Assembly: GCA_001460835.1 (NCBI GenBank)
Contig: CYKH01001877.1
Location: 1 to 56,920, forward strand
DNA: 56,920 bases
Origin: Bodo saltans
Taxonomy: Eukaryota; Euglenozoa; Kinetoplastea; Eubodonida; Bodonidae
Direction: 5' to 3'
The position numbers were made by a program, and so were the translations under genes. This document shows, piece after piece, positions 10,551-55,783 of the stretch. Under the pieces are notes generated by a model. The model was not told the origin of the DNA. It did no database searches and worked only from the letters and a program-made list of their open reading frames with translations. Numbering within the stretch: the stretch's first letter is position 1; each line of letters starts with the position of its first letter.

Positions 10551-11158
10551 AAATGAAAACCGCAGGCTTACGTGGAGATGGTGGCAGAGAAGCGCAATGG
10601 AGAGCATGTAACCCTGAGCCTGCGAACTATTTTGCTTAAGCGAGGGGATAACTCGCAACTGCGAATCCGATTTCTCCTCCCCCTGTGCTGAATGCGTTGT
10701 ATTTGTTTCCGCTGTAAAGACGACGCGTTTTTTATTCCACACACTTTGTTGTTGTTTTATCTAAAACGAAAAGTAGGACGTGCGCCACCGGCTGTGTTGA
10801 ATCACGACGAAAGCAAACAAACGAGAATATTGAAACGAAATGCAGTGAGGACAAGGAAATGACGGTGCAAATGGAAGGGCAAATGCGCAACAAAAGGTTA
10901 ATTTCTATTTTTACTTTCTTTTCTATTTCTCAAGAGAGATGAGCAAAAAAAAAAAGCAATGAAGCGATTATCACGAATTTGAACTTTGTTAAAGCTGTTT
11001 GACCGGCTTTTGTTCACTTTTCGTTTCACGCGTCAAAAAGAAAAGTAGCAGTGGTCGTGTTTGGATGCTGCTCTTGTCGCTAACATGCTTTACACTTTTA
11101 TGGCATCTCTTGCTGTTGTCATTTTGATTTCAGAAACACAACATTTCAATAGAGTGAG
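10551..11158. other. Intergenic spacer of about 600 bp
   Basis: I see no plausible gene. The stretch contains a T-rich tract at 10903-10933 and a second tract ending in CAG at 11133, both candidate processing signals between the small acylated protein and the mannosidase. Confidence 0.4.
11107..11133 (+). promoter_or_regulatory. Putative trans-splice acceptor of the GH47 gene
   Basis: A T-rich tract (TGCTGTTGTCATTTTGATTT) ends in CAG at 11131-11133, 25 bases before the ATG at 11159. This matches the usual kinetoplastid acceptor layout. Use of the site is inference. Confidence 0.4.
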
Positions 11159-12418
11159 ATGAGATTCCAAAATCGAAGCAGAGTCACCCTCACGCAAAAA
11201 CGTCGTCGCCAGCTCATTATCCTCATCACTGTGTTTGCCGTGTTCGCTGTTCCTTCTCTCCTTACGCATCACCAGCCACCGAATCCGCTCGCCGTACTAC
11301 ACACGGCGGATGGTGGTGCCACCGTTGACTTACGGAAATCCCCGTTTAGACAGCCAGTGCAAACACAAGCAGTTCAGACACCACAGCCAGTACCTCCTCA
11401 CGTCGTCGTCAACTCTGAGCTGCCACCTGTAGTGGCGGAGACGAAGAAGAAGGTTGCGACACCTCCAACTGACTCATACACGCCCCAGTACCACCCGAAC
11501 TTCCCTCGTGGTGCCCCTGTGCCTCGGCCATACCGACTTGACACGACAAAATTCTCAGACAAGCAGCGTCGAGTGGTGGAGGGCATCCGCCATGCCTACG
11601 TGAATTACAAAAAGTACGCGTGGGGCCACGACGAGCTTGCCCCCCTGCGTAAAACGTACACGGACTGGTCTCAAGGCCACAACAGCGGTATTGGGTTGAC
11701 TGCTATCGAGTCTCTCGATACCATGTGGCTTGCCGGCCTCTACGACGAATTTCATGAAGTCATTGAGTACCTCAAATCCCCCATGCACACCTTCTCACGA
11801 CACATCGAGGTAGGCATTTTCGAAACCACTATTAGAGTGCTCGGAGGTTTGCTGTCTGCGTACGAGCTCAGCGGAGAGCTGATTCTTCTTGACAAAGCCT
11901 TTGACATTGGAAGCCGCCTGTTTCACTGCATCGAAGGCCGCACCATTCCCCACGCATCTGTGTATCTTGACAGCGGTGAGACCTCGAACCCCGGCTGGCT
12001 CGGAGGCTCCCAAAGTCTTGCTGAGGTCACCACCATTCAGCTCGAGTTTAAGAAGCTCTCCGTGTACACAGGCGACATGAAATACGACAAGGCCACGATG
12101 GAGATTATGCACCGTGTGCTGGAGCACATTCCCTCCACCGGTTTGTACTCCATTTACATCTCCATGAGCAACGGCTCCCCTGCCTCTGGTCAAGTGACAC
12201 TCGGAGCACGTGGAGACAGCTTCTATGAGTATCTCGCCAAGCAATGGGCGCTGACGAACTACACCGAGAGATGGCTCGAGGACGCGTACCGTAAAGTTGC
12301 AAACGGAGTGGTCGACCACCTGAAGGTGCAAATGGACGACACGCACGCGTTTGTGGTTTTTTTTTTATTAGAGTGCTCGGAGGTTTGCTGTCTGCGTACG
12401 AGCTCAGCGGAGAGCTGA
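11159..12418 (+). CDS. GH47 alpha-1,2-mannosidase, 3' end missing at an assembly gap
   Basis: The protein has a basic N-terminus, one membrane anchor (residues about 19-37), a Pro-rich stem, and from about residue 135 a GH47 catalytic domain. This is the layout of ER/Golgi class I mannosidases that trim Man9 N-glycans. The proposed catalytic acids Glu222 (in IFETTIRVLGGLL) and Asp353 (in RGDSFYEYL) are present. The third acid and the calcium-binding Thr of the C-terminal half are missing. Authentic sequence ends near 12355. After a T run the DNA repeats 11831-12093, and the frame then reads out-of-frame residues to a false stop at 12418. I take the gene to be complete in the organism but truncated in this assembly. 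EDEM-like membership is less likely because the domain is close to the hydrolytic enzymes. Confidence 0.85.
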   Translation: MRFQNRSRVTLTQKRRRQLIILITVFAVFAVPSLLTHHQPPNPLAVLHTADGGATVDLRKSPFRQPVQTQAVQTPQPVPPHVVVNSELPPVVAETKKKVATPPTDSYTPQYHPNFPRGAPVPRPYRLDTTKFSDKQRRVVEGIRHAYVNYKKYAWGHDELAPLRKTYTDWSQGHNSGIGLTAIESLDTMWLAGLYDEFHEVIEYLKSPMHTFSRHIEVGIFETTIRVLGGLLSAYELSGELILLDKAFDIGSRLFHCIEGRTIPHASVYLDSGETSNPGWLGGSQSLAEVTTIQLEFKKLSVYTGDMKYDKATMEIMHRVLEHIPSTGLYSIYISMSNGSPASGQVTLGARGDSFYEYLAKQWALTNYTERWLEDAYRKVANGVVDHLKVQMDDTHAFVVFFLLECSEVCCLRTSSAES

Positions 12419-12629
12419 TTCTTCTTGACAAAGCCTTTGACATTGGAAGCCGCCTGTTTCACTGCATCGAAGGCCGCACCATTCCCCACGCATCTGTGTA
12501 TCTTGACAGCGGTGAGACCTCGAACCCCGGCTGGCTCGGAGGCTCCCAAAGTCTTGCTGAGGTCACCACCATTCAGCTCGAGTTTAAGAAGCTCTCCGTG
12601 TACACAGGCGACATGAAATACGACAAGGC
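12367..12629. repeat. Duplicate of 11831-12093 next to the assembly gap
   Basis: These 263 bp look identical to 11831-12093 inside the GH47 gene (offset 536). The duplicate starts after a T run and ends exactly where the N run begins. This is the usual signature of a mis-joined contig end rather than a biological duplication. Confidence 0.85.
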
Positions 12630-12929
12630 NNNNNNNNNNNNNNNNNNNNNNNNNNNNNNNNNNNNNNNNNNNNNNNNNNNNNNNNNNNNNNNNNNNNNNN
12701 NNNNNNNNNNNNNNNNNNNNNNNNNNNNNNNNNNNNNNNNNNNNNNNNNNNNNNNNNNNNNNNNNNNNNNNNNNNNNNNNNNNNNNNNNNNNNNNNNNNN
12801 NNNNNNNNNNNNNNNNNNNNNNNNNNNNNNNNNNNNNNNNNNNNNNNNNNNNNNNNNNNNNNNNNNNNNNNNNNNNNNNNNNNNNNNNNNNNNNNNNNNN
12901 NNNNNNNNNNNNNNNNNNNNNNNNNNNNN
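12630..12929. other. Assembly gap of 300 N
   Basis: Exactly 300 undetermined bases. The missing part of the mannosidase, an intergenic spacer and the first half of the kinesin motor would need well over 300 bp. The N number is therefore probably a placeholder or a poor estimate. Confidence 0.95.
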
Positions 12930-15229
12930 CAGCAACAGGTGTGTTTGTCGAGGGGTTGACTGGCGTGGAGGTGGACTCGTGGTCCAAAATGGCAGAACTC
13001 ATCGAAATGGGAAATTTGGCGCGCTCAGTAGCGTCTACGAAAATGAACGAAAGATCCAGTCGAAGCCACACCATCTTCAAGGTGACTCTGTCTCAAGTGA
13101 CGACATCAATTCCCCGAAAGCAATTTGAGAAACCGACACAACATCTTAGGTCCGCCCAAATCAACCTTGTTGATCTTGCCGGCTCTGAGCGCAACAAGAA
13201 GACTGGTGCCACGGGAGATAGACTCAAAGAAGCAGCCTCCATCAATCGATCCCTGATGTGCCTCAAGCAGGTCATCGATGCGCTTGTGGATAACTCACAA
13301 ATTGTCAAGGCAGCCAACAAGAAACGCGTCCCGTACCGAGATTCGCATCTCACCTCAGTCCTTCAAGATTCCCTCGGAGGTAACGCGAAAACGTGGATGC
13401 TCGTGTGCGTCAGCCCACACTCAGACAACCTGGAGGAGTCCCAGAACACACTCCGATATGGATCCCGAGCGCGTAAGATTTTGAATCAAGTACATGTCAA
13501 CGAAAACGCATCAGCACGGCTGATGTTAGATTTAGAAGACGAGCTTGACCGACTCAAGGCCGAGCTTGCCTCGTCCGCGGAGGCGACCACCCCAGGTGCT
13601 GTCGATTCGCTCAAGGCGCAAATTGAAGCGCATGAGAGCGCCATTAACTCGCTGGAAGGCGAAGTGGAAGCGCAAAAACAAAAGATTGAGCGACTTCAAG
13701 TCGAGCGCGACAAGGGAACCAAGGAACGCGAAGCAAGTGCCATGAAGCATCTTACAACAGTCATGCAGGCACGCCTCCAACGCGACAGTGTCGAGCAAAC
13801 TCTACAAGCTCGCACGGATGAGATTGTCGCTCTTCGAGAGCACTTGATCAAACTTCAAACGGAGAGGCATACCTCCGTCACGGAAACAGAGAAAAGCGAC
13901 AGTGAGGCAAAGAAATTGCGCGCTGCGGCGTTGCAACTCGATCAAACCATCGATGAGATGAAGCGAAAGATCGGAAAATTGGAATCTCAAAGGAGATCGC
14001 TGCAAGTCTCTTGCGACGAAGGGGAACAATTTGTCAAGTCGCTCGCACAAGATAAAGTGGCGACCATCTTACGAGCGCGTCTGCAAGTTGCCCGAATTCG
14101 CATTGACCACCGACGGAAGCTGGAGGAATTGAAACTTCAAAGCAGCAAGAAGCATCACGACCTCAAGGAGCTCTCGCATCGTCAAGAACGTGTCGACGAC
14201 GACCACGTTCACGCTGAGCTCAGCACGCTGCACCAGACCATCAATTCCCTTCGCCATCAATTAGCGTCTACTCGCAGCGAGGAGGAAAAGGTCCACACGG
14301 AGAAGACAAATCAAATCGCAACGCTTCAACAGGAACTCGGGCATCTTCAACAGGAAGTCCGCAGGAAGCGGGAGTCCCATCAAGCGAAGCTTACTGTCAT
14401 CACCAACGACTGGGACAAGAGGATGCAAACATTATCACAAGAGACCGAAAAGCAGCTGCAAGCCCACCACGAGGAGTGGGAAACAAGACGGCGAGAGCTG
14501 GAGGACCTTCGGGATCAACAGAAAAGCGATATCATTGCAGACTACGAGCGGCGGACCGCCCAGGTGCAAGAGCGAAGTGACGAAAGACTACGCGACGTCG
14601 CAGAACGAGGAGAAGCGGAAATTATCAACATGCAAGGAGAGTGGCAGCACGCACTTGCCGATAAGCGGCGAGACAACGACTCATTGAGAGAATCCCTTCG
14701 ACAACTTTCGCAAGACAATCAAAAGTATTGTGCGTTGCAGTACCGCATCAGCACAGCAATGGAACTGTTGCAGAAGGCGAAATTTAGCCGCAAACTATCT
14801 GCTGAAGCAAAAGAAATGATCACGTTGGCATTGGAGTTCCATGCCTTGTTCGAGGAATACCACCCGGAGAAAACAAAACTGGATCACCTCATCAAAGCGA
14901 ACCTCACCCTTCAGCGGTGCTCCGTGATGCCTATTTTAGGTGAGGGCATTGAGGGGATGATGACGAGGGCTAAATCACCTGCAGCGCGATCGCAGAGCCC
15001 TGTTGTGGGTGCTGGAAGGAGCGGTGTAGCAGGGCGATCCGCGTCTCGAGCGAATTCACCTTCGCTAGGAAGGAGAACGAACAGTACTGCGGGTGGTGGA
15101 TTGGGCATTGAAGACTCGCCACATTCTGCGTCACACGCACCGCCACCGCGAGTCGGCAGTTTGAGAAGTGTGTCCCCTCGAGCTGGCAGTGTTGGCTCAT
15201 CTGCGTCACCAACAACCCGACGGCTGTAA
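12930..15229 (+). CDS. Kinesin, N-terminus lost in the gap
   Basis: The frame is open from the gap edge. It starts within the motor domain at GVFVEGLT, followed by switch I (MNERSSRSH), switch II (LVDLAGSER), KTGATGDRLKEAASINRSL, VPYRDSHLTSVLQDSLGGN and the end of the motor at TLRYGSRARKI. The P-loop and the first 150 or so motor residues are missing. A long coiled coil follows (about 500 residues, rich in Glu, Lys, Arg and Gln), then a Ser/Pro-rich basic tail (AKSPAARSQSPVV). It is an ATP-driven microtubule motor that probably dimerises. The motor at the N-terminus implies plus-end movement. I cannot assign a subfamily, as no FHA domain is seen after the neck. The GTG at 12941 is not a start. 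Confidence 0.9.
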
Positions 15230-35742: not shown

Positions 35743-36795
35743 ATGGACATCACGTGGTACTCTGAGAAAAACGTTGAAGCTCAAACAGTGATTCTCATTT
35801 GTGGCTGGCCTGATACATCGGACATCTTCTGCGAAAACATTATTCCGCTACTTATCCGCGGCACCAACAACAACAATCATCGCGATTCGCCTTCCCTTCA
35901 TGCCCTTTCGCTCTCCATAGATGAAGCATCGGGCCCGTATCGCGTGGTTGGGCTCACATTGCCGTCGTATTCTCAGAACAGTGCAAGGAAGGCCTTCGGT
36001 TGGTCACTTTCTGCGCTGGTTGATCTTTTTGATGAAGCAATTCAGCGAATCATGGACACGTACCCGGCGACGTCGCGGTTTCGTCACTTGGCCCCAATCC
36101 TAATCTGCCACGACTGGGGATGCACCATAGCACTGGAATGCTTAACGAAACGTCCGTTTCTGTTCGAACGGATCGTCTGCCTTGACGTTTCCGGACACCC
36201 CGCAGGCGATTGCAAACACGCTCAAAGCTGGACTAACGTCTCTTCGTGGCTGCTAGGAGCATCAAGTGCTGTCAGCTTCAAAGCGATGGTTCACATTTTA
36301 TGGTATCAATCTTGGATTATGATGTGCTATCTGCTCCATTTCGTGATCCCGTTCTTGGCGGACTGGTTGATTGTGCTTCTCTGTCGACTCGCCGGGCGCC
36401 CAGAGTATCGACGCTTCGTCGGTGGCGACACACCTATCCTTGGTGGTCGTAGTCACAACAATGCTGCCGTCGTTGTCAAAGCTCGGGGCGACATGGGGTG
36501 GCCCTATTTCTCCTTGTGGTGGGGCTTGCTCATCCGCCTTCCCCTCACGACGCATCGCTACTTTGTACCAGTGCACGTGCCGATTTTGTACCTGTACGGA
36601 GAGCGCAAGCCGTTTCAGTTCCACACCGATCAGTGGATCCACCATATCGACGAGAAGCGCGTCCGTGATGGTATGTCCCTTGCGTTAGGCATTCGTGGAG
36701 GAGGTCACTGGTTCTACGCTGCAGGCGGGTTGCCGCAAAAGCTTGCGCTAGGACAAATTGAACAATTCCTCGCGACCCAGCGCAAGGTGATTTAA
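35743..36795 (+). CDS. Alpha/beta-hydrolase with Asp in the nucleophile elbow
   Basis: This is a 350-residue protein from ATG 35743. The frame is open to 35671 but only via GTG, so the ATG is preferred. It has VILICGWPDTSDIF, the HGxP-like oxyanion strand after the first beta strand. LICHDWGCTIALE forms the nucleophile elbow with Asp124 where serine hydrolases have Ser, as in epoxide hydrolases and haloalkane dehalogenases. The catalytic His is probably His322 in GGGHWFYAAGG, and VPILYLYGERKPF carries the third-strand acid region. A hydrophobic stretch of about 40 residues (residues 185-225, SWIMMCYLLHFVIPFLADWL) lies in the cap and suggests membrane association. The reaction cannot be told. 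The last 83 codons are duplicated just downstream. Confidence 0.8.
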   Translation: MDITWYSEKNVEAQTVILICGWPDTSDIFCENIIPLLIRGTNNNNHRDSPSLHALSLSIDEASGPYRVVGLTLPSYSQNSARKAFGWSLSALVDLFDEAIQRIMDTYPATSRFRHLAPILICHDWGCTIALECLTKRPFLFERIVCLDVSGHPAGDCKHAQSWTNVSSWLLGASSAVSFKAMVHILWYQSWIMMCYLLHFVIPFLADWLIVLLCRLAGRPEYRRFVGGDTPILGGRSHNNAAVVVKARGDMGWPYFSLWWGLLIRLPLTTHRYFVPVHVPILYLYGERKPFQFHTDQWIHHIDEKRVRDGMSLALGIRGGGHWFYAAGGLPQKLALGQIEQFLATQRKVI

Positions 36796-36983
36796 TTGTG
36801 TAGGGAAGACAAAAAAACATAGATCTGATTGACTGTGAACACACATACACAAACAAACTCGTTGCCGAGCATTATCCTCCTTCGCATCATTATCATTATG
36901 CACCAATTTTGATTTCTCGTCACCCTCCTCCATTTTTTTCACACAGGTTCGTTCAATTTACTTCCCCCAATTTCACTTGAGTC

Positions 36984-37253
36984 ATGTTTTCGAGCGTCCC
37001 GCTAACGACGCATCGCTACTTTGTACCAGTGCACGTGCCGATTTTGTACTTGTACGGAGAGCGCAAGCCGTTTCAGTTCCACACCGATCAGTGGATCCAC
37101 CATATCGACGAGAAGCGCGTCCGTGATGGTATGTCCCTTGCGTTAGGCATTCGTGGAGGAGGTCACTGGTTCTACGCTGCAGGCGGGTTGCCGCAAAAGC
37201 TTGCGCTAGGACAAATTGAACAATTCCTCGCGACCCAGCGCAAGGTGATTTAA
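36984..37253 (+). pseudogene. Partial copy of the hydrolase C-terminus
   Basis: The second copy of the tandem duplication is open from ATG 36984 for 89 codons. The first six residues (MFSSVP) come from intergenic DNA, and the rest repeat residues 269-350 of the hydrolase, including the catalytic His region, without the nucleophile. A pyrimidine tract and ACAG at 36923-36946 sit just upstream, so a short transcript could in principle be made. It cannot be a hydrolase on its own. Confidence 0.5.
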
Positions 37254-37380
37254 TTGTGTAAGGAAGAGAAAAAAACATAGATCTGATTGACTGTGAACAC
37301 ACATACACAAACAAACTCGTTGCCGAGCATTATCCTCCTTCGCATCATTATCATTATGCACCAATTTTGATTTCTCGTCA

Positions 37381-37404
37381 CCCTCCTCCATTTTTTTCAC
37401 ACAG
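37381..37404 (+). promoter_or_regulatory. Putative trans-splice acceptor (also present at 36923-36946)
   Basis: A C/T tract (CCCTCCTCCATTTTTTTCAC) is followed by ACAG. Because it lies in the 458-bp duplication it occurs twice, the second time as the acceptor-like tract before the NAP gene at 37638. Confidence 0.35.
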
Positions 37405-37637
37405 GTTCGTTCAATTTACTTCCCCCAATTTCACTTGAGTCATGTTTTCGAGCGTCCCGCTATTTTTTTTGGTCGTGAAGAGTCTCTTGTTTTAGATGTC
37501 GCACACCAAATTATAAGCATCCTGCGCTGTGTTGTTGTTGATCCTTTGGAACACTAAAATTAACTTTGATTGGAAGCCAAACACTTCTTTATCTTTCGTT
37601 GGTAGAATACTAATTAATCGACAAAGAAAGGCTAGAG

Positions 37638-41003: not shown

Positions 41004-41754
41004 AGAGACGCGCGTCACTCACACGTCCTCTCGTTTTATTTTGATTTTCTTCGCACACACACACACACACACCCACAACACAGCACCAAGTGAAGTGCAA
41101 GCGCACTTTGCTTGCGACCGTTTAGATGTAAACAAAAAGAGAGAAGTATGAGGAGGGGGCAATCGTTTTCTTTGTGGACACACCCCGCACCTGTCAAAGC
41201 ACACATTGCGCCGCTAAAGCATCGATGTGCGTCTTTGATTTCTATTTCTTTGTATTGTCAATTATTGAGCAAAAAATTGCACGATGTATTTCGTTGTGGC
41301 TGTCACACTTCTCGAATTTTGTTTGCTCGTTTGCTATTTTCTTTCTTTCGCCCTCACAAGTAAATCGAATTTTCGAGAAGGTAGATAACAAACACAATTT
41401 AGAGTGGTGGCTGTAACGCGACAAAAATCATCAAAATATTCTTTTGGATTGTGATTGTAATTTTCACGTCCCGTGCTCTTCGTTGTCTGTTCAAACACGC
41501 AACACACACCACAAAAAAACACAGAGGAGAGTCAAAAAGAAAGTCTTGCACTTCCTCACACAAAAAAGTTCCATTCTCCACACAAAAAAGGCAAAAGGGA
41601 GTGAATCGGACGACTACTGAGTCACCACATCAACAAATTATCAAAGCCAGTGAGGTACTCTCTTTCAGTACCACACAAAGCACAAAGAAAAGGAATTTTT
41701 TAAAAGAATCTCTCAACAGTAATAGTGTAATATTGCTATCAACCAACGTGTCTT
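41004..41754. other. Intergenic spacer of 750 bp
   Basis: I see no gene. It contains a (CA)n tract at about 41053-41072. Small open frames here lack any motif. The last 300 bases are A-rich and precede the flavodoxin-module gene. Confidence 0.45.
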
Positions 41755-43662
41755 ATGAAAGGACCCCTGTACATCCTTTACGCATCCCAAAGCGGAAATG
41801 CTGAAACGATTGCATAGCAACTGCATTGTGACGCTGAGGCCAACGGTGTCGTCATTTCTGCCGATAGCTGCATCGTTATGACCCTCGATGCTTTCGAAAA
41901 GAAAGGCATCCTCTCAAAGCACGCAGCAGACGGCTCAACGTCGATGCTGACGCTGGTGATCGTCTGCAGCACAACAGGCGACGGCGAGGTGCCCGACAAC
42001 GGAGCCAAGTTCAAGCGCTACCTCCGCAACACCACCGACAAGTTTGTGAATGTACGGTTCACAATGCTTGCCCTTGGGGACACGAACTACAACAGCTTCT
42101 GCCTTGGTGGCAAGTACATTGACCAGAAGCTGGAGGCCCAGGGTGCCACCCGATTCTACCCGCGTGGTGAGGCGGACGATGCGATGGGGCTGGACACCGT
42201 CGTGGACCCCTGGATTGCTGGGCTTTGGGGAGCGCTCAAGATCGTCGATAGTGCTCCCCTCGCAGTCCCTGCACCTGTTGCTCCAAGCATCGTGCTAAGA
42301 GCTACTCCGGATAAAGGACCACTGTATTTTCTGTACGCCTCCCAAACTGGCAACTCCGAAACCATTTCAAAGCAACTCCACTGTGATGCAGAAGCAAAGG
42401 GGGCGTGGCGAGGTAACCAGGCCGAAAACTCTTCACCCTTCGTCGCTGTCATGACGATTGATGCTTTCGAAAAGAAAGGCATCCTCTCAAAGCACGCAGC
42501 AGACGGCTCGACGTCGATGCTGACGCTGGTGATCGTCTGCAGCACAACAGGCGACGGCGAGGTGCCCGACAACGGAGCCAAGTTCAAGCGCTACCTCCGC
42601 AACACCACTGACAAGTTTGTGAATGTACGGTTCACAATGCTTGCCCTCGGGGACACGAACTACAACAGCTTCTGTCTTGGCGGCAAATACATTGACCAGA
42701 AGCTGGAGGCCCAGGGCGCCACCCGATTCTACCCGCGCGGTGAGGCGGACGATGCGATGGGGCTGGACACCGTCGTGGACCCCTGGATTGCTGGGCTTTG
42801 GGGAGCATTGGAGAACTTAGAGGCAACAGCGCCAATTGAAACATTTCAGCAATCGGAAGAGCCGCACTTGCCGATGGACACGCCTCTCAAGACAGTCATC
42901 CTTTACGACCCAGACACGCCAGGCCTGCAGCACCTCGCTGCCTTTCTGTTCGAGCAAATTCTGGACTTAGGAGGCGTCGCCGCAATCTGCCCCATGAGCC
43001 ACGCCTCAGAAGCAGCGCTCAACTCATTGAGCCCTCAAGCGTTGTTGTTCCTGTGGGGCACCGGGAAGAAGACCTCTACGCTGTGCAACATTTGTCAAGC
43101 GCACCATCGAAAGCGTGTCGAGGCGGCAGCAACATCGTCCCTCCTTGGGTTCGCTATCAACACTCCCAACCTTCAATCGCCCAAGGACATTAACACCGCG
43201 TCCTTCGCCTCGTGGCTGAGCACCTCCACATCCGTGTTGTGCTACGCATCTCTTGGCGTGGTTGTATCACCGGAATCCCAACCGCAACTAAGTTTGGTCG
43301 ACACTGCGGTCACTGCTGTGCTTCAGAACTCCAGCTCCCGTAGGCTTGTGGATCTTGGCAGTAAATTTTTGAGACAGAATGGCACAATCACAACGACGAG
43401 TAACACCACGACCCCTGGGCACTCCTTTCAGTTCGCGTTCCATCGGCAAGATGTCTTCACGTGGTGCCAGCTCCTGCTGGATTATCTCCCAGGCATCGTG
43501 GCCGATATCAAAGCCATCACCACCTCGTTGGAGGCCGCTACGTTCCCATCCCTTTTTTGTGATGGAACTTCGTCGTCGTCGTCGCCAAACACCCAAAAGG
43601 TGGACGGGTCGTCACCCGTCGGCACGCCCATCATCGCAAACATCCCGGCCCAAGGACATTAA
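41755..43662 (+). CDS. Multi-flavodoxin diflavin reductase, 5' part with an in-frame TAG
   Basis: The frame starts at ATG 41755 (MKGPLYILYASQSGNAET), hits TAG at 41815-41817, and is otherwise open to 43662. After the TAG the first possible ATG is 41878. Module 1 (to about 42240) and module 2 (about 42322-42825) are flavodoxin domains with all FMN loops: ASQ[ST]GN[AS]E, STTGDGEVPDNGAKF and LGDTNYNSFC. Module 3 (from about 42889) keeps the fold length but has lost the loops (LYDPDTPGLQ). The TAG replaces the codon that is Lys (AAG) in module 2 (ETISKQLHCDAE), so a single A-to-T change explains it. The 3' part continues at 43649 after a frame-shifting duplication. Together the two parts look like one gene of nearly 2000 codons. 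Confidence 0.75.
41878..42811 (+). repeat. Tandem duplication of a flavodoxin module
   Basis: The 361-bp block 41878-42238 is repeated at 42451-42811 (573-bp period, 191 codons, in frame) with very few substitutions. The sequence upstream of the blocks is more diverged. This points to recent duplication or gene conversion within the gene. Confidence 0.85.
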
Positions 43663-44152
43663 CACCGCGTCCTTTGCCTCGTGGCTAAGCACCGCCACAT
43701 CCGTGTTGTGCTACGCATCTCTTGGCGTAGTCGTATCACCGGAATCCCAACCGCAACTAAGTTTGGTCGACACTGCGGTCACTGCTGTGCTTCAGAACTG
43801 CGGCTCCCGTCGGCTTGTGGATCTTGGCAGCAAAGTGTTGAGACAGGCGGCAGCCACCACGCCAAACCTCATCAGCAGCAATAATGGCACAATCTCAACG
43901 ACGAGTAACACCACAGCCCCTGGGCACTCCTTTCAGTTCGCGTTCCATCGGCAAGATGTCTTCACGTGGTGCCAGCTCCTGCTGGATTATCTCCCAGGCA
44001 TCGTGGCCGATATCAAAGCCATCACCACCTCGTTGGAGGCCGCTACGTTCCCATCCCTTTTTTGTGATGGCACTTCGTCGTCGTCGTCGCCAAACACCCA
44101 AAAGGTGGACGGGTCGTCACCCGTCGGCACGCCCATCATCGCAAACATCCCG
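43180..44152 (+). repeat. Imperfect tandem duplication (469/504 bp) breaking the reductase frame
   Basis: 43180-43648 is repeated at 43649-44152, with scattered substitutions and a 36-base insertion of 12 codons in copy 2. The join at 43648/43649 moves the reading frame from 1 to 2. If one copy is removed the gene is open from 41878 to 48109. This pattern fits two haplotypes joined end to end or a true unequal crossover. Confidence 0.85.
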
Positions 44153-47100
44153 CTGTTGCCAAAACAAACAACGTCTCACCACAGTGCCGTCACCAAAGGA
44201 GGCAATGCAGCCTCATCGTCGTCCTCCAAGCAGCCAGCCACCCGGCCAGATCATCTTGTCCACTCGGTCCTGTCACGGAACGTGTTTCTGTACACTGGCA
44301 ACGCTAGTCACTTTGTCGTCACTGTCGCGCACGACCTGCATAGTCAAGGGCAGCGCAGGGGATATGACGGCGTGATTACCGAGCTTGAAAACTTCAAGAA
44401 AGTTGGTTTCCCGAGAAGTGCCAGTTTTGTGTTTGTTGTGGGTCCAGACTTTGCAGGTCTGCCAAAATCGGTCGCGAAGTTTTTCAAAGCAATGAAGAAG
44501 TTCCAAGCCGAAACGACCAACAACAAGCCTGTGATGGACTCAGTGAAGTTCGCTATACTTGGTATCGATGATCGCCGCACCACGACGAACTTTAATTTCA
44601 CTGCTCTGGAGTTAGAGTGCACCCTCCTCGGCCTTGGTGCTCGAAAGATTCACGCCACCGCACTGGTGGATGTTGGAGGCAATGAGGAATCCATGCAGCA
44701 AATTGTGACGACGTGGTCCGAAGGATTGTGGTACAGCCTCGCTAGCCCAATGTCCAGCGTTGCGTACATTGACGCCCCATCCACGCAGTACACCCCTGTC
44801 GCAAGCAGCAGCGCTGATGGGACTACTGCAACACCGACGGAACCACAGCATGCGTCATCATCGTTCTTCCCATGGGAGCCAGTGCAGCTCCGCACAGAAG
44901 CGGTCGCAGATATGAATGTACTGTTGTTGTACTCCTCAGCAGGTATCGCCAAGACGATTGCACTGCAGGCTCGTGCAGAGGCCGACCAAATGGGAGTTCG
45001 CACGGAGTTGCTTTCCTTCTCCAAGGCTGCTCGGCGCGGCACAGAGTTGCTGCTCAAGCACAGCTGCATTGTATCCTTCGTGGAGTGCGCTCCTGGTAGC
45101 GGCGAGTCGCTCGCAGGAGGCCGCAGTTGGAGGCGGTATCTGATGAGTATGATTCACGCTCCCGACCTGATGTCCCACATTCACTTTGCCGTCCTCGCTG
45201 TTGGTAGCTGTGGTGAAGGCGACGACAACAACAACAGTTCCCCCTCGGACAAGCCCCATCGCGCGGCAATCTCCATCTCTGACCGGATGAGCGAGCTGCA
45301 AGGGAACCGGGTGTTTCCTGTCACGCCATTGGCGCATTTGTCGCAACTGTACTCTATCGGTATGCCTTGGTTCCGTGGTGTGTTGTCTGCGTTCTCCAAT
45401 TTGGTCGTGCAAGGCGGCAAGCTGGTGTCTCCTGCACTTTCGCCGCAAATGCATCCTGGTGGGGGAGTAGGCGACAATGACGATCTCCCACTTGTGCGGT
45501 TGCCTCCGTCTGCTCGCCCCTCATCGGCTGCGTCGTCAGCCGTGTCGATCTTATTTTTGTATGGCTCCGTGACTGGAAATGCAGAAGCTATCGCGCGTGA
45601 TTTGCATGGTGAAGCCCTTCAAGTCGCCGGTGTCCATTCGCGTGTGGCCTCGCTGAATCAATTCGAAAAAATGAAGTTTCTCTCCACAACATACGTGGTC
45701 GTTGTCTGCTCAACCACCTGCACCCTGGAGGGAGTCGGTGGAGCATTTCCAAACAACGCCCTTCGGTTTGTGAAGTATCTCGACACCAATGCTAAAACAA
45801 CAACGGAATTGCTGTCCAACGTTCAGTTTGCCGTACTTGCTTTAGGTAGCCGGAAGTACCCGTCAACTTTCTGTGCGGCTGGCATTGCCATCGATGATCG
45901 TCTGCATTCCCTTGGTGGGCAACGGCTGATTGAAGTAGGTTGTGCTGATGAAGTGGAAGGGCTTGACATCACTGTGGAAGCATGGCGCAAGAAGCTATTC
46001 GATGCTGTCTTGTGGATGTCCAAAGATTCTGTCTCGGTATCGCCCGCACCACTGTCGGCGATGCCCACGCCGAATCTGAAGCCGAGTGTTCCACCATTCG
46101 GCACGATCACTGGAAGTTCTCCATTGCACGACGGGAGTAGCGCTGTGGATGACGGCACTCTTGTCATTCCTGCCCTTCTGGACATGCCAGGTGCGCTCAA
46201 CACCACAGTCTTAGCCTCCACAACAGCAACGATGACAATTACCAAGCTTCCTCGTGTTCTTATTCTGTTTGGATCTCAGAAGGGGAACGCGGAGGCCATC
46301 GCTGGGCACATGCACCAACAATTCCAAGATCACTCCGAATTGTACGACACGCTGGAAATTGGACCGCTCAATGACTTTGAATCACTTCATTGGCGCAGGT
46401 ACCAAGTGCTGCTGATAGTATGCTCCACAACAGGAGAGGGGGAATTCCCAGACAACTCCTACCTGTTCTACAAATTCCTCCGAAAGCCCCACCCTGAAGA
46501 TCTTTTAAATGGAATGAAGTATGCGGTACTTGGATTGGGAGATACAAACTACTCTCGTTTCTGCCAAGCTGCCAAGACACTGGACAGAAGGCTGGAGGAG
46601 GTGGGCGCATCCCGCTTTTATGCTCGTGGTGAAGCGGACGATGCGTTCAGCCTGGAGGCAGTGGTGGAACCTTGGATCGAAAACTTGTGGCCTGCGCTGA
46701 AACGAGCAACGACGCAGCAGCAACCTCTCAACAGAACGGTCAGCAGCGCGCTAAAAGAGAGCACTTCCCTTGTCGCTGGAGAAAGCGGCGCACTGTCTCC
46801 CAGTCTCAGTGCAGGGCGTAGCGGTCGTGTTGTTCAAGCTCCAAGGTCTGACACGTCCACTAGCACGACAGCAACGGAAAGGATGCTGACCAAAACGCTT
46901 GGCAATACAAAGACCGTCACGGCGCGTATTCGAGGTTGGCGGAAGTTGACCGGTGACGCATCTCAGCACACCGTCATCCATCTGGACATGGAAGTACCTC
47001 CCGCCACCAAGTGGTCCCCTGGCGACACGGTGTCGATCCTTCCGTGCAATGAAACTGGAGAAGTGGAAGCAATCTTGCAACGGTTGAAGACAGACGGAGA

Positions 47101-48109
47101 TGAACCGTTCCTCCCACCCAATGCACTTGGCGTGTCAAGCTTGTTCCCAGGATCCCCACTGTACTCGCGGATTTCGTATCCCATCACGAATCGAGACGTT
47201 CTGTCGCAAGTGGTGTCTCTTCGCATTCAACGCACAAGTCTCAAGTCCATTTTATCCGTGTTGATGGGCGGAACAGACGATCCCACGGAGAAGACCCTCT
47301 TAGCATCATGGAGCCCTGCTATCACCGACCGTGTCACTCTCCTCACATTGCTACGGAAGTTTAATCACACGCAACCGTTGTTCCGTCACGTGGTGGAGCA
47401 CTTGATGGTGTTACAGCCTCGGTCCTACTCCATCTGCTCATCTCAGCTCGTTGATCCCACGTGCCTCTCCATTTGTTTTAAGGTCGAACCCTTCGGCCTC
47501 TGTACCAATTGGATGTACAAACTATGCAAGTTTACGTCGTCATCCCCCGCTGGTGTTGCCGCGGAGATTCCTTTAGCATTCCGAGAGACGGCGGAGTTTA
47601 GGGTGCCGACAGATGTGCATATCCCCCTTATTCTCATTGGGCCTGGTACTGGTGTTGCGCCATTTATTTCCTTTTTGCAGCATCGCAGGTGCATGATGCG
47701 GCAGCTCGGCATCGCATCTCCTGGAGAAGCGCACTTGTTTTTTGGATGTCAAACCGCTGCTGATTATCTCTACCACGCTGAACTTGACAATTTCCTTACA
47801 GACTCTACCCTCAAGCAGCTTCATGTTGCCTTCTCGCAGCTGCTATTAGGACCCAAGACCATGCCTCCGGTCTACGTTCAAGACAAGTTGCAAGAAATTG
47901 GGCAGCACTTGTGTGACTTGATGATGCACCACAATGCACATATTTTTGTATGCGGCGATGCAGAGCCTTACGCGCGTGATGTGCATCGAGTGTTGATTGA
48001 CATGCTGGAGCTGCACCTTCGGTGGAGCACAAGTCGTGCGACGCAATACATTGAGGCGATGGCCGAGGATGGGCGTTATCAGCGTGATATTTGGACCTCG
48101 TCGTGGTGA
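43379..48109 (+). CDS. Multi-flavodoxin diflavin reductase, main part (modules 3-7 plus FAD/NADPH domain)
   Basis: Only the sequence from 43649 onward is in the natural frame; 43379 is an out-of-frame ATG in the first duplicate. Modules 4 (about 44268-44740) and 5 (about 44905-45420) are flavodoxin-like without FMN loops. Module 6 (45538-46020) keeps GSVTGNAE. Module 7 (46249-46700) keeps GSQKGNAE, STTGEGEFPDN and LGDTNYSRFC. The reductase part then follows, with FAD motif QPRSYSICSS, LILIGPGTGVAPFISFLQHR, LFFGCQTAADYLYHAEL and FVCGDAEPYARDV. The end GRYQRDIWTSSW carries the aromatic C-terminus. This is a cytochrome P450 reductase / methionine synthase reductase type enzyme, which normally has one flavodoxin domain. 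In the NADPH site AFSR is replaced by AFSQ, and the Lys of the phosphate site is not seen. Electron flow from nicotinamide to FAD to FMN is known of the family. The use of extra modules is unknown. Confidence 0.85.
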   Translation: MAQSQRRVTPRPLGTPFSSRSIGKMSSRGASSCWIISQASWPISKPSPPRWRPLRSHPFFVMELRRRRRQTPKRWTGRHPSARPSSQTSRPKDINTASFASWLSTATSVLCYASLGVVVSPESQPQLSLVDTAVTAVLQNCGSRRLVDLGSKVLRQAAATTPNLISSNNGTISTTSNTTAPGHSFQFAFHRQDVFTWCQLLLDYLPGIVADIKAITTSLEAATFPSLFCDGTSSSSSPNTQKVDGSSPVGTPIIANIPLLPKQTTSHHSAVTKGGNAASSSSSKQPATRPDHLVHSVLSRNVFLYTGNASHFVVTVAHDLHSQGQRRGYDGVITELENFKKVGFPRSASFVFVVGPDFAGLPKSVAKFFKAMKKFQAETTNNKPVMDSVKFAILGIDDRRTTTNFNFTALELECTLLGLGARKIHATALVDVGGNEESMQQIVTTWSEGLWYSLASPMSSVAYIDAPSTQYTPVASSSADGTTATPTEPQHASSSFFPWEPVQLRTEAVADMNVLLLYSSAGIAKTIALQARAEADQMGVRTELLSFSKAARRGTELLLKHSCIVSFVECAPGSGESLAGGRSWRRYLMSMIHAPDLMSHIHFAVLAVGSCGEGDDNNNSSPSDKPHRAAISISDRMSELQGNRVFPVTPLAHLSQLYSIGMPWFRGVLSAFSNLVVQGGKLVSPALSPQMHPGGGVGDNDDLPLVRLPPSARPSSAASSAVSILFLYGSVTGNAEAIARDLHGEALQVAGVHSRVASLNQFEKMKFLSTTYVVVVCSTTCTLEGVGGAFPNNALRFVKYLDTNAKTTTELLSNVQFAVLALGSRKYPSTFCAAGIAIDDRLHSLGGQRLIEVGCADEVEGLDITVEAWRKKLFDAVLWMSKDSVSVSPAPLSAMPTPNLKPSVPPFGTITGSSPLHDGSSAVDDGTLVIPALLDMPGALNTTVLASTTATMTITKLPRVLILFGSQKGNAEAIAGHMHQQFQDHSELYDTLEIGPLNDFESLHWRRYQVLLIVCSTTGEGEFPDNSYLFYKFLRKPHPEDLLNGMKYAVLGLGDTNYSRFCQAAKTLDRRLEEVGASRFYARGEADDAFSLEAVVEPWIENLWPALKRATTQQQPLNRTVSSALKESTSLVAGESGALSPSLSAGRSGRVVQAPRSDTSTSTTATERMLTKTLGNTKTVTARIRGWRKLTGDASQHTVIHLDMEVPPATKWSPGDTVSILPCNETGEVEAILQRLKTDGDEPFLPPNALGVSSLFPGSPLYSRISYPITNRDVLSQVVSLRIQRTSLKSILSVLMGGTDDPTEKTLLASWSPAITDRVTLLTLLRKFNHTQPLFRHVVEHLMVLQPRSYSICSSQLVDPTCLSICFKVEPFGLCTNWMYKLCKFTSSSPAGVAAEIPLAFRETAEFRVPTDVHIPLILIGPGTGVAPFISFLQHRRCMMRQLGIASPGEAHLFFGCQTAADYLYHAELDNFLTDSTLKQLHVAFSQLLLGPKTMPPVYVQDKLQEIGQHLCDLMMHHNAHIFVCGDAEPYARDVHRVLIDMLELHLRWSTSRATQYIEAMAEDGRYQRDIWTSSW

Positions 48110-48387
48110 TGATGAGGTGGCACACAACGCACATTCGTCGCTTGCATCTCTTACAAGGTTGCGCACACGCTCACATATTCCAATTTTCGTGTATCCACCC
48201 TTGAAATATGCTCGACGTCCTTGCTTGGGAATTCTAATTTCGAGGATAGAAAACGTAAATCACCATTGACCGCTTGCAACATAAAAGTATTACGATGTAG
48301 TTTATCGATGCGAGTCAATTTTTTTTTCCGTTGCTTTCTTCAAAAAATCCAATCGGCGAAAACTTCAGGAACATAAAGGCTTACAAT

Positions 48388-52197: not shown

Positions 52198-52525
52198 AAG
52201 TTGAGGCGGCGAACCATTGAATGCATAGAGAGATGATTGTGTATTCTCGTCAACTTTTGATTTGAATGAGAGAGAAACTTGTTTGGTTTATTGATAGAGT
52301 GCAACTCATCCCTTTTGGAATAGAACGAGACATGCCTGCCTGCGATGCGCGTGGCAATTGTCTGTTTAGAAAATGAACCAATTTCGGTTACATACAGCAC
52401 CAGCAATGAAATTAGTTTGAGGCTCTCGCGCAACCGACTCATCAACTGTTTCATTCAAGTGTCTCTTTCCTCTTCATTTTGTTCAGAGAAAAACGCAAAA
52501 CTCCTTTCACGGTCACAAAGCACCG
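52198..52525. other. Intergenic spacer with candidate acceptor
   Basis: I see no gene. The tract before the CAMSAP gene is described separately at 52461-52486. Confidence 0.4.
52461..52486 (+). promoter_or_regulatory. Putative trans-splice acceptor of the CAMSAP gene
   Basis: GTCTCTTTCCTCTTCATTTT is followed by GTTCAG, with AG at 52485-52486, 39 bases before the ATG at 52526. Confidence 0.45.
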
Positions 52526-55500
52526 ATGAGCATCGAAAGCTACCTCATGGAGCTGGTGTGCAGCACTCGTTGGATCTGCAATCATCTCTTAGCCACTGGT
52601 AACAGCACGGGAGAGCCCAGCTGGGTACAGAGGTACCCTGGCGATGCGGAGACGGCAAAGCAGGCGTTGTTTATGCTGTCCAAGACGCATAGTCACGTAG
52701 AGGATATGGAAGAGATACCCGAAGCCATTGTTGCCACCCTTTGTGAAGGTGCCTTGTACCTGTTGGCGTCGGAAGTGATATTAGGGCACTGCCCGCCCAC
52801 AATGCATCAGTTTCTGCAGCAGACGACCCTGCAGCGTCAACAAAGCGCTGCACAAGCTCAATTATTATTGTTGCGTTGGCTTTTGACCGCAGAGATTTTG
52901 CAGATCGATAATGTGATGGGCACTATCTTCGAAGATGCTGTGACGCTGGAAGATTACGCCACGGATTATGATGCGCACCTCGCCATCGCTCGCTACTTTG
53001 CACAAAGCGAACCCTTCTACCTTGGTGCCCATGTCATGATCCTCCGTGGCCTCATGTTACACTTCATCAACGACTCGCTTCAAGGAGAGGACGTTATGAA
53101 CCACTTGCAGCTTATTGCCCCCGATATTGTGGCTGGAGGTGGGGCTTCATCTGCCCTCATGATCGAAGACGCACTATTGCTGTGGATTCGAGGTGTGCTT
53201 GGCTTGTTTACCGCCGAGCTCAACTCCGCAGCGGCAAAACGCATTGTACAAGAAATTTGTCATGTCGACGACCTCTATCTGCACACGAACGACGGACGTG
53301 TGCTTGCTCTCGTGATCCATCATTATCAGCCGGCATTGGTCGATCTTAACTCCGTTCACTTCGCCACGCCGCTGAGTATGTGGCAACGGCAAGATAATTG
53401 GGCCCACATCATCCGCGCTGCGGAGGCGTTAGGGGTGTGGGTGGGCGTATTTGCCGATGAGATGGTCGCCCACGGCTTCGTTACGTTGCAGCAGCATCTC
53501 CTTCGCATCGTGCAAGATTTATTTCTCGTCTTGGCGTGCGATGCCGAGGACCAATACGAGACCCTCCGCAAGACTATCGAAGAGCGGGGAGGGAATCATC
53601 ACCATAACACTTCTGCTGTCGGAAGCGATAACGTGTCGTCGCTTGAGCTAGAAGGGCACACGACGTTCGTGGACAAGAACGTGATGCACAGCATGATGAT
53701 CACTTCGTCAACACCGCCTCCTCTTCTGAAATCTGGTGCGTCCTCCGTGTCGAAGGGCCGCCCTCCCACCAGTGCTGCGTATGAAACAGTGCGGGACACG
53801 GGAGATCATCCCTTCGACGGGCAGCAGCACCGTGAAACCATTCACTCACGGGAAACCATCGAGACGAACTCCTCCTCACCTCCGTTCCCAATCTCGCGTG
53901 ATGGAGGCGACGACCATCAGAGAGGAGGCGGTGCTGCTCACCACGATGATGATGGTGATGATGATGATGAGCCAGTCGATGTCGGGAACCAACACGGAGA
54001 CTTCAACTTTGTGATGACGGGTTTGTTTCTTCAAGGTGTCTCCATTCCCATTCAGCGGCAGAAGCAGTCGGTCGAGGAAGAAGCTCAGGTGCTCCAACCA
54101 ACCAGTGCAGCGACAACTCAAGCTGCTCTCCTCCCCAAGTCTGTCGAGATCCTTGCACCACCCCCCTCTACATCAGTGCTCGCAGCAAGCTCAACTTCTG
54201 TCACAGCGCTCCCTGCGCCATCTGATGAACCGCATAGGTCCGATTCCCCTGTACTTGTCGGTCGGAGCGCAGAGTTCCGGCGACTTAAGGTGCGTGAAGA
54301 CAACGCCGTCGCATCCAGTGTGGCCCATTTCAAGGATCTTCGAGGCCCTCAGCGAGCAGCCACCACAGCAGGTGGTCCACAACACCAACAGCCGATGCGT
54401 AAGTCCATGGTGCAGGGCTCTGTCGATGTGGAGGGGATCGAGAGTCTTCTTCAGGAGCTTGCCGCCATCACGAACGATTCATCTGTGGGGAAAGCACGGC
54501 CGATAGGGGGAGGTGAGCTGTCCGACCCTCTCGCTGAGGCAAGAGAGCAGAATCACGTCCTTCGCTGGGCACTTGAAGAACAGAAGCGCAAGGTTGCAGC
54601 GATGGTCGAGAAGCTTAGGCTGGGCATTCGAAAGCAGGAGTTCTCCGCGATCGTGAAGCACCTTAAGGGGCAAAAAGCAAGCGGTGCGCAGTCCCACGCT
54701 GCTCGCCTCGCGCCGTCAGTGCTGCGCAAGATGTCGCTAACCGGTGGAGTTGCGGCCACGGATGTATCGTTTGCTCAACACGATGATGGTCCAGAAGATG
54801 CTCAACGAATTGCCAGGCGAGAAGACAAATTCCGCCAATCGATGGAACACGTGAGAAGCTCTCAGCAGCGTTCGAACATCGCCGAGCGCATTGTGGTGTC
54901 CTCATCAACGACAACTGCTGCGACCACAACAACAGGGAAACAACAAAACCAAGCAGAACAACATCAAGTCGCTCCTATCCTGCCACAGTTGCCAGCTTCT
55001 ATGATCGCCAAGAATGCACGAGGGGGCTTGGCACTCAACTTTAGTACTGGCGGATTGGCGAAAAATATTGCAAGAGCTGCACTGGACTCCCCGTCAGAGC
55101 AGCACCGAGACGAGAAAAGCAACGACGATGCGTCGGATGGAATTGCACCTGTCAAGCTAGTGCCGCTAGAAAGTGTTCGGAATGCCCGAAAATTGTCAAC
55201 CGCGAATACTGTAGCACAGCAAAGGAAGCGGAGCAATTCTTCCGCTGAACCGTTAGCAGATGGTCAAGGAGGTGCAGAGGACGCACTTGGCTCTACTAAC
55301 GGGACAGCAAGCACAACAACGGCAGCCGCGCCAGTTGTCGTTAAGATCAAGAACAATAAATCAGTGATGGTTCTTGCGTTTAAGCATGTCTTGCTCACTG
55401 GCCAGCTGAACAAGGCCCCACTGGAGAAGGTGCTAAAGTTGGTGAGTGACCTCACCGAGGACGGTGGCCACCAATTCATTGTGCTGTTTAAAGACGAGTT

Positions 55501-55783
55501 TACACAACAATTCAAAGGGCTGTACACAGTGCGCCCGGATGCTGTGTTGGTGCGCATCTATGGATCAGGACCGTACATGGCGTATGTTGGTCCTCAACCA
55601 AACAATGAAAATGAGACAACTCTGTGGACGCAAGGTCTTCCTTACTTGTTTCCCAAGTTTTTCAAATTTGACTCTGGGAGCAAAACATTCCAGCAATTCT
55701 CGGCGAAGTGGGTGAATCAAGCCGCAGACGGTGTCGCATTTGCTGCTGCCAAGCCAAAGATGATTGATAGAGAGCGGTTCTGA
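52526..55783 (+). CDS. CAMSAP/Patronin microtubule minus-end binding protein
   Basis: This is a 1085-residue protein. The N-terminal region holds a CAMSAP-type calponin-homology domain (about residues 210-310, ALLLWIRGVLGLFTAEL and LHTNDGRVLALVIHHYQPAL). A long Ser/His/Gln-rich disordered middle contains one coiled-coil segment around residues 670-715 (LRWALEEQKRKVAAMVEKLR). The C-terminus is a CKK domain (about 940-1070): KSVMVLAFKHVLLTGQLNKA, HQFIVLFKDEFTQQFKGLYT and LFPKFFKFDSGSKTFQQFSA. CKK binds growing microtubule minus ends, and the CH domain and coiled coil link partners. The complete CAMSAP architecture is preserved. The gene follows TBC1D31, which also acts near basal bodies, so a shared cilium role is possible but inferred. 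Confidence 0.92.
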   Translation: MSIESYLMELVCSTRWICNHLLATGNSTGEPSWVQRYPGDAETAKQALFMLSKTHSHVEDMEEIPEAIVATLCEGALYLLASEVILGHCPPTMHQFLQQTTLQRQQSAAQAQLLLLRWLLTAEILQIDNVMGTIFEDAVTLEDYATDYDAHLAIARYFAQSEPFYLGAHVMILRGLMLHFINDSLQGEDVMNHLQLIAPDIVAGGGASSALMIEDALLLWIRGVLGLFTAELNSAAAKRIVQEICHVDDLYLHTNDGRVLALVIHHYQPALVDLNSVHFATPLSMWQRQDNWAHIIRAAEALGVWVGVFADEMVAHGFVTLQQHLLRIVQDLFLVLACDAEDQYETLRKTIEERGGNHHHNTSAVGSDNVSSLELEGHTTFVDKNVMHSMMITSSTPPPLLKSGASSVSKGRPPTSAAYETVRDTGDHPFDGQQHRETIHSRETIETNSSSPPFPISRDGGDDHQRGGGAAHHDDDGDDDDEPVDVGNQHGDFNFVMTGLFLQGVSIPIQRQKQSVEEEAQVLQPTSAATTQAALLPKSVEILAPPPSTSVLAASSTSVTALPAPSDEPHRSDSPVLVGRSAEFRRLKVREDNAVASSVAHFKDLRGPQRAATTAGGPQHQQPMRKSMVQGSVDVEGIESLLQELAAITNDSSVGKARPIGGGELSDPLAEAREQNHVLRWALEEQKRKVAAMVEKLRLGIRKQEFSAIVKHLKGQKASGAQSHAARLAPSVLRKMSLTGGVAATDVSFAQHDDGPEDAQRIARREDKFRQSMEHVRSSQQRSNIAERIVVSSSTTTAATTTTGKQQNQAEQHQVAPILPQLPASMIAKNARGGLALNFSTGGLAKNIARAALDSPSEQHRDEKSNDDASDGIAPVKLVPLESVRNARKLSTANTVAQQRKRSNSSAEPLADGQGGAEDALGSTNGTASTTTAAAPVVVKIKNNKSVMVLAFKHVLLTGQLNKAPLEKVLKLVSDLTEDGGHQFIVLFKDEFTQQFKGLYTVRPDAVLVRIYGSGPYMAYVGPQPNNENETTLWTQGLPYLFPKFFKFDSGSKTFQQFSAKWVNQAADGVAFAAAKPKMIDRERF

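Follow-up and report, generated by a model that had tools for sequence, protein, structure and literature searches.

The 56,920-nt stretch of Bodo saltans DNA analysed here (contig CYKH01001877.1 of assembly GCA_001460835.1; called the window below) carries on its plus strand a gene in which a row of at least six flavodoxin-like units lies upstream of a flavin adenine dinucleotide (FAD)/NADPH reductase module. On balance, sequence comparisons make it probable that the product of this array gene is a soluble, methionine synthase reductase (MSR)-type diflavin reductase whose flavin mononucleotide (FMN) domain was multiplied by internal duplication. The textbook design of a diflavin reductase has two flavins, with a single FMN domain shuttling between FAD and the acceptor. 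The gene extends from an ATG at 41755 to a TGA at 48107-48109, which bears out the limits 41755..48109 given in an original prediction made from the sequence alone. Two open frames were read, 41818-43662 (frame 1, its start counted from a stop at 41815) and 43373-48109 (frame 2, 1578 codons). In the 1578-codon frame the Pfam domains followed the order Flavodoxin_1, FAD_binding_1 and NAD_binding_1, which is the diflavin reductase layout. The prediction had proposed that several FMN-type domains precede the reductase part of a diflavin reductase; this domain order and the six units support that proposal, and the class can be narrowed to the MSR type. With the duplicated stretch described below counted once, the chain comes to roughly 1,960 residues by arithmetic. 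Unit 1 starts one codon past the ATG at 41755, and reading by eye showed no N-terminal membrane anchor of the cytochrome P450 reductase (CPR) kind. The GC fraction of the lowest 300-nt segment inside the gene was 0.477, compared to 0.408 and 0.435 in the AT-richer flanks (41005-41754 and 48110-48300, respectively). Because no internal 300-nt segment reached the flank level, no intergenic stretch was seen between the units; low-GC boundaries mark gene borders in Bodo, according to a published study (PMC2621209).

The units follow one another at 41758..42237 (unit 1), 42313..42810 (unit 2), 42886..43515 (unit 3), 44270..44746 (unit 4), 44909..45397 (unit 5), 45542..46015 (unit 6) and 46247..46699 (unit 7), the last being the FMN domain that adjoins the reductase module. 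At a threshold of E 10, Pfam Flavodoxin_1 matched six stretches, two of them in the first frame and the other four in the second, and when units were scanned singly it matched unit 4 at E 2.6e-4 and unit 5 at E 0.063, both below the curated cut-off. A shuffle test was run with four profiles per unit and 2000 shuffles each, one of the four profiles for unit 7 having included unit 7. The real scores of units 1, 2, 4, 5, 6 and 7 were reached by none of the 2000 shuffles with any of the four profiles. With a profile made only from three paralogues, units 1, 2, 6 and 7 scored 71.4, 66.3, 66.4 and 78.3 bits and units 4 and 5 scored 13.2 and 9.1 bits, the best shuffles for the six units lying at 5.2-10.0 bits. 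The hhalign probabilities of units 4 and 5 were 96.5% and 96.6%, and the top of 100 shuffles was 3.1% for each. The row of flavodoxin-like units upstream of the reductase module is real, and units 1, 2, 4, 5, 6 and 7 set its minimum count at six. Seven units had been predicted; six stood above all shuffles, but unit 3 failed every test made. When each unit was checked against flavodoxin profiles, units 1, 2 and 4-7 matched and unit 3 did not; among units 3-6, only unit 3 lacked profile support for a flavodoxin fold.

Counting unit 3 as a flavodoxin was set aside, as profiles, hhalign, Pfam, the search of solved structures and AlphaFold with Foldseek all fell short of support. Its profile scores were equalled by 41 to 110 of the 2000 shuffles, depending on which of the four profiles was used; hhalign gave a probability of 1.5-2%, with 100 shuffles reaching up to 2.1%, and the unit scanned alone against Pfam gave no match. 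The mean AlphaFold confidence (predicted local distance difference test, pLDDT) was 43 for unit 3 by itself and 51 when six other flavodoxin domains were aligned with it, and both models showed alternating helices and strands at low confidence. With Foldseek, none of the 1208 matches to the stand-alone model was at E<=0.001, and neither was any of the 1191 matches to the alignment-guided model; flavodoxins were frequent among the top rows of the latter, a model biased by its alignment. A comparison of the sequence with solved structures returned two spindle-pole-body-type chains at E 0.019. In the genome searched (29.3 Mb in 934 contigs, a set in which absences are weak, with the array on contig C732), matches to unit 3 at E up to 1 were limited to itself and its duplicated copy. 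Unit 3 is in the right place and may, judging from the models, be an alpha/beta domain, but these tests did not show it to be a flavodoxin.

The FMN loops were judged by eye in an alignment of the units. Loops of this type bind FMN in diflavin reductases, and the motifs of the array units may resemble those of human MSR. The phosphate loop, the STTG-x-GE-x-PDN loop and the LGDTNY-xx-FC loop were all present in units 1, 2 and 7. Unit 6 kept the phosphate loop and the tyrosine of the third loop and had a five-residue insertion in the second, and units 4 and 5 had largely lost their FMN loops. The alignment agreed with the loops first read in units 1, 2 and 7 (all loops) and in unit 6 (the first). 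The accompanying claim that units 3-5 keep the fold and lost the loops held for units 4 and 5, but the fold of unit 3 was unsupported by profiles.

Pairwise scores among units 1, 2, 6 and 7 were 65-118 bits, and 315 bits for the near-copies 1 and 2, compared to 9-53 bits between these units and the FMN domains of three paralogues of the same genome (C778, C111 and C715). The best partners of units 4 and 5 were units 6, 7 or 1. Since the units are closer to one another than to the three paralogues, the pairwise scores, on which this argument is built, suggest that the array arose through internal duplication. The similarity between units 1 and 2 includes 359 nt that are 96.7% identical. Over the last 117 codons the two units differed at 11 bases, all 11 of them synonymous, without a single amino-acid change. 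About 83 of the 351 sites in these codons are synonymous, and by our own arithmetic the probability of such a result by chance is near 1e-7. By this codon comparison units 1 and 2 are maintained as protein under purifying selection, which speaks against a passive leader. The first 28 codons of the pair differed at 13 synonymous bases and at 8 bases in residue-changing codons, one of which is a TAG; identity was 75% over these 28 alignable codons and lower beyond them. Because identity steps abruptly along the pair, gene conversion within an old pair of units is suggested.

The reductase module (46907..48106; FAD_binding_1 and NAD_binding_1) had no visible defect and is separated from unit 7 by a linker of 69 residues (46700..46906, with boundaries set here), its counterpart in CPR being about 20 residues shorter as seen by eye in the alignment. 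Among solved structures the closest relative of the module was MSR (2qtl, 173.1 bits), followed by the best CPR (151.4 bits), P450-BM3 (142.5 bits), sulfite reductase (108.6 bits) and nitric oxide synthase (103.4 bits); the MSR assignment comes from these solved structures and concerns the FAD/NADPH module only. The array shares with MSR the order of FMN domain, linker, FAD and NADPH domains, and a methionine synthase is present in the genome: a B12-dependent enzyme (MetH) with homocysteine, folate, B12 and activation domains was found on C115. This MetH gene (L018 115-4042, G000:C115) itself contains a 228-nt repeat that keeps the frame (722-1167) and a 169-nt duplication that breaks it. MSR and CPR each have one FMN domain, and CPR, which has the same domain order and folds, is usually membrane-anchored, whereas in the array five further flavodoxin-like units and unit 3 lie ahead of unit 7. 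Because its six flavodoxin-like units contradict the single-FMN-domain feature of diflavin reductases and MSR, the array was not filed as an ordinary MSR. A second, ordinary MSR may exist, the assembly being possibly incomplete. FAD_binding_1 gave six matches on five contigs of the genome: C732 with the array, C778, C111, C715 and C188. Of these, C188 was discarded as a candidate for an ordinary MSR, as it had a FAD_binding_1 match but no Flavodoxin_1 match; its 575-codon frame (L042 1030-2757, G000:C188) has a cysteine-rich N-terminus. A Leishmania gene, LinJ.36.4950, is annotated as MSR in two papers (PMC6794121, PMC4784933), and a third reports that Endotrypanum and Porcisia lack both MSR and methionine synthase (PMC8004069).

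One paper on human MSR describes electron flow from NADPH through FAD and FMN to cobalamin, an encounter between the FMN domain and the activation domain of methionine synthase, and a hinge of unusual length (PMC13376404). In the array protein, NADPH would likewise reduce the FAD of the module, and the electrons would cross the 69-residue linker from FAD to the FMN of unit 7. Unit 7, which we infer from its place beside the reductase module to be the working FMN carrier, would then hand single electrons to the cob(II)alamin of methionine synthase and so reactivate it. Units 1 and 2 are predicted, with moderate confidence, to bind FMN, since their FMN loops were kept and selection maintained them, and they would probably act as additional tethered carriers or as docking heads for methionine synthase. 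The putative roles of units 3-5 are probably those of degenerate spacers or binding surfaces, and unit 6 would be intermediate. A tentative extension of this scheme is a multi-FMN carrier, in which one FAD/NADPH module would charge unit 7 and then units 1, 2 and perhaps 6 on one chain, with the degenerate units as spacers.

A possible alternative, to which we give a minor share of the probability, is that unit 7 alone is catalytic and that the front units serve as a scaffold or platform to which methionine synthase or B12-trafficking proteins bind. It would fit with units 4 and 5, largely without FMN loops, and with the unrecognisable unit 3. The human MSR paper cited above also describes regions other than the FMN domain through which MSR contacts methionine synthase, and its reference list includes, by title, a chaperone role of MSR (PMC13376404). 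However, the FMN loops of units 1 and 2 are under apparent purifying selection, and these would be needless in a passive scaffold.

Several observations weigh against an MSR-type reductase with several copies of the FMN domain. FMN binding by the array units is deduced from their loops, and a lysine in the phosphate loop of unit 7 stands in place of the serine or threonine of units 1, 2 and 6. The tree of the units (9 rows, with unit 3 left out) was weak, with none of six inner branches starred, and a single origin was neither shown nor excluded by it. The comparison with MSR was possible in the FAD/NADPH module only: no MSR was among the 51 solved chains that matched unit 2 at E<=1e-5, and unit 2 matched NDOR1 (55.7 bits) and CPR (54.1 bits) about equally. 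The MMACHC and MMADHC families had no match in the genome, though the control genomes likewise had none, and hence no conclusion can be drawn. Finally, unit 1 contains an in-frame TAG without explanation, to which we return below.

The likeness to MSR might be limited to the reductase module, and the acceptor could be a P450, another haem protein or several partners, an alternative that we consider rather unlikely. In its favour, CPR chains were the best matches over unit 7 and the reductase module together, where the FMN domain went unmatched by the solved MSR chain, and P450 matches were found on five contigs of the genome. Against this alternative, the module preferred MSR to the best CPR by 22 bits, and none of the three other reductases of the genome that were tested (C778, C715 and C111; the CPR-like C589 was left out) preferred MSR over CPR or P450-BM3. 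The reductase on C778 scored 135.3 bits with the CPR reductase-only chain 3qfs and 92.8 bits with MSR, and a 238-residue piece of that on C715 scored 78.7 bits with CPR and 69.7 bits with MSR. The corresponding values for C111 were 103.6 bits with P450-BM3, 92.6 bits with the best CPR, 84.7 bits with 3qfs and 56.2 bits with MSR. Separate CPR-like genes with a hydrophobic N-terminus, as read by eye, are present on C715 and C589, whereas the array opens directly with unit 1. The C111 gene appears to join a reductase with a hybrid cluster protein, as its Flavodoxin_1 and FAD_binding_1 domains continue without a change of frame into the first part of a Prismane/hybrid-cluster domain (L003 1129-3423, G000:C111, 1287 codons). 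Among single domains, the FMN domain of NDOR1/Tah18 (4h2d) was the best match of units 2 and 7, but the genome has a separate NDOR1-like gene with one FMN domain on C778. Six array units are recognisable relatives of the flavodoxins (Flavodoxin_1, PF00258), three of them with FMN loops.

The two reading frames of the array gene meet at a tandem duplication. Copy A (43179..43647, 469 nt), which lies in unit 3 and the linker after it, and copy B (43648..44152, 505 nt) abut exactly. Besides an in-frame indel of 36 nt, 15 base differences separate the copies, of which 8 are synonymous and 7 are not; relative to the adjoining sequence, the two copies are open in one and the same frame. As 469 and 505 both leave 1 modulo 3, the duplication itself shifts the frame. 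To place it in context, direct duplications were surveyed in the window and 20 other loci (21 stretches with 216,708 bases other than N), counting as abutting those of at least 118 nt with a gap of -8 to 0 between the copies. Eight were found: two in the window (36540-37462, and 43179-44152, which was joined by hand from two pieces) and one in each of six of the 20 other loci (L018 3257-3596, L019 1608-2229, L021 584-819, L034 695-1910, L035 6927-7241 and L036 4517-5313). The copies at the seven sites other than 43179-44152 were 95-100% identical. Repeats with gaps of 2 to 10 (L030 4997, L036 6170 and L018 722-1167 in MetH), an overlapping short-period repeat (L021 175) and distant repeats were left uncounted. 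L018-L022 had been picked for their genes, two of them for split-looking family hits, and L023-L037 by number only; among these 15, one of which was all N, three had an abutting duplication. The reading frame was checked for two cases: the duplication in L018 breaks the MetH frame, with 8 of 8 differences synonymous, and that in L019 breaks the frame of a P450 gene, where both of the 2 differences are synonymous.

The published Bodo saltans assembly (39.9 Mb, 2,402 scaffolds), from which the window presumably comes, was made with Velvet, SSPACE, GapFiller and IMAGE (PMC4728078). It is plausible that abutting copies are unmerged ends of alleles or contigs joined during short-read assembly with gap filling. 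Because similar duplications recur in the assembly and break the MetH and P450 genes, the frame shift at 43648 was very likely introduced during assembly. The duplication had been foreseen at 43180-44152 and is confirmed at 43179-43647 and 43648-44152, and the same recurrence supports the view that it is not part of the gene. The repeat formed by units 1 and 2 does not belong to this class of artefact, as its copies are 214 nt apart and their fronts have strongly diverged. Elsewhere in the window, 264 nt are repeated with 100% identity at 11830-12093 and 12366-12629 (536 nt from start to start, not abutting), near the junction of the open frames 11153-12418 and 12617-15229.

The in-frame TAG (41815..41817) lies in unit 1 just past the phosphate loop, at a position where unit 2 has a sense codon. 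It may reflect an error of sequencing or a single bad allele, or it may be a genuine stop, translation then starting at the next in-frame ATG, at 41878; in the last case unit 1 would lose its phosphate loop, with the rest of the unit intact. A reassigned TAG was considered unlikely, since 4 of the 20 long open frames examined terminate in TAG. Taken as real lesions, the TAG and the duplication would instead mark a decaying gene whose array is drifting, which the degenerate units 3-5 might also reflect. We regard decay as improbable: the gene retains an open frame of 1578 codons, none of the 11 changes between units 1 and 2 alters the protein over 117 codons, and a like duplication breaks MetH with only synonymous differences. 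Both copies of the duplicated stretch are also open in the same frame with an in-frame indel, although 7 of their 15 differences change residues. That the array is an assembler-made chimera or a collapse of separate neighbouring genes is very improbable, for although the assembly contains false-looking joins, one of them inside the array gene, units 4-7 share one frame with the reductase, no inner stretch is as GC-poor as the flanks, where gene borders in Bodo would be expected to show, and the fronts of units 1 and 2 are too divergent for alleles.

Downstream of the array, an open frame at 52421-55780 of the window encodes CAMSAP CH and CKK domains, as in a protein of the microtubule minus-end type. 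A search with a spliced-leader pattern of trypanosomatids gave 0 matches.

A row of flavodoxin units ahead of a diflavin module was undescribed in our literature searches, which combined at least two terms, so that papers reachable by a single phrase would escape them; nor did they return a tandem row of flavodoxins. The single paper in them that mentions both Bodo saltans and flavodoxin deals with haem synthesis. The original statement that no described protein has this layout agrees with these searches, but they are too limited to establish it, and the genome search covered one kinetoplastid genome. A review of diflavin reductases assigns one FMN and one FAD domain to each reductase (PMC3509625).

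False tandem duplications evidently have to be reckoned with when genes are modelled in this assembly. A natural protein in which several FMN domains precede a single FAD module would allow a test of whether extra carriers alter electron delivery, and of how the reactivation of methionine synthase can be reorganised. If the multi-FMN carrier, tentative as it is, proved true, more than one electron could be stored and delivered, or several methionine synthase molecules could be served at once.

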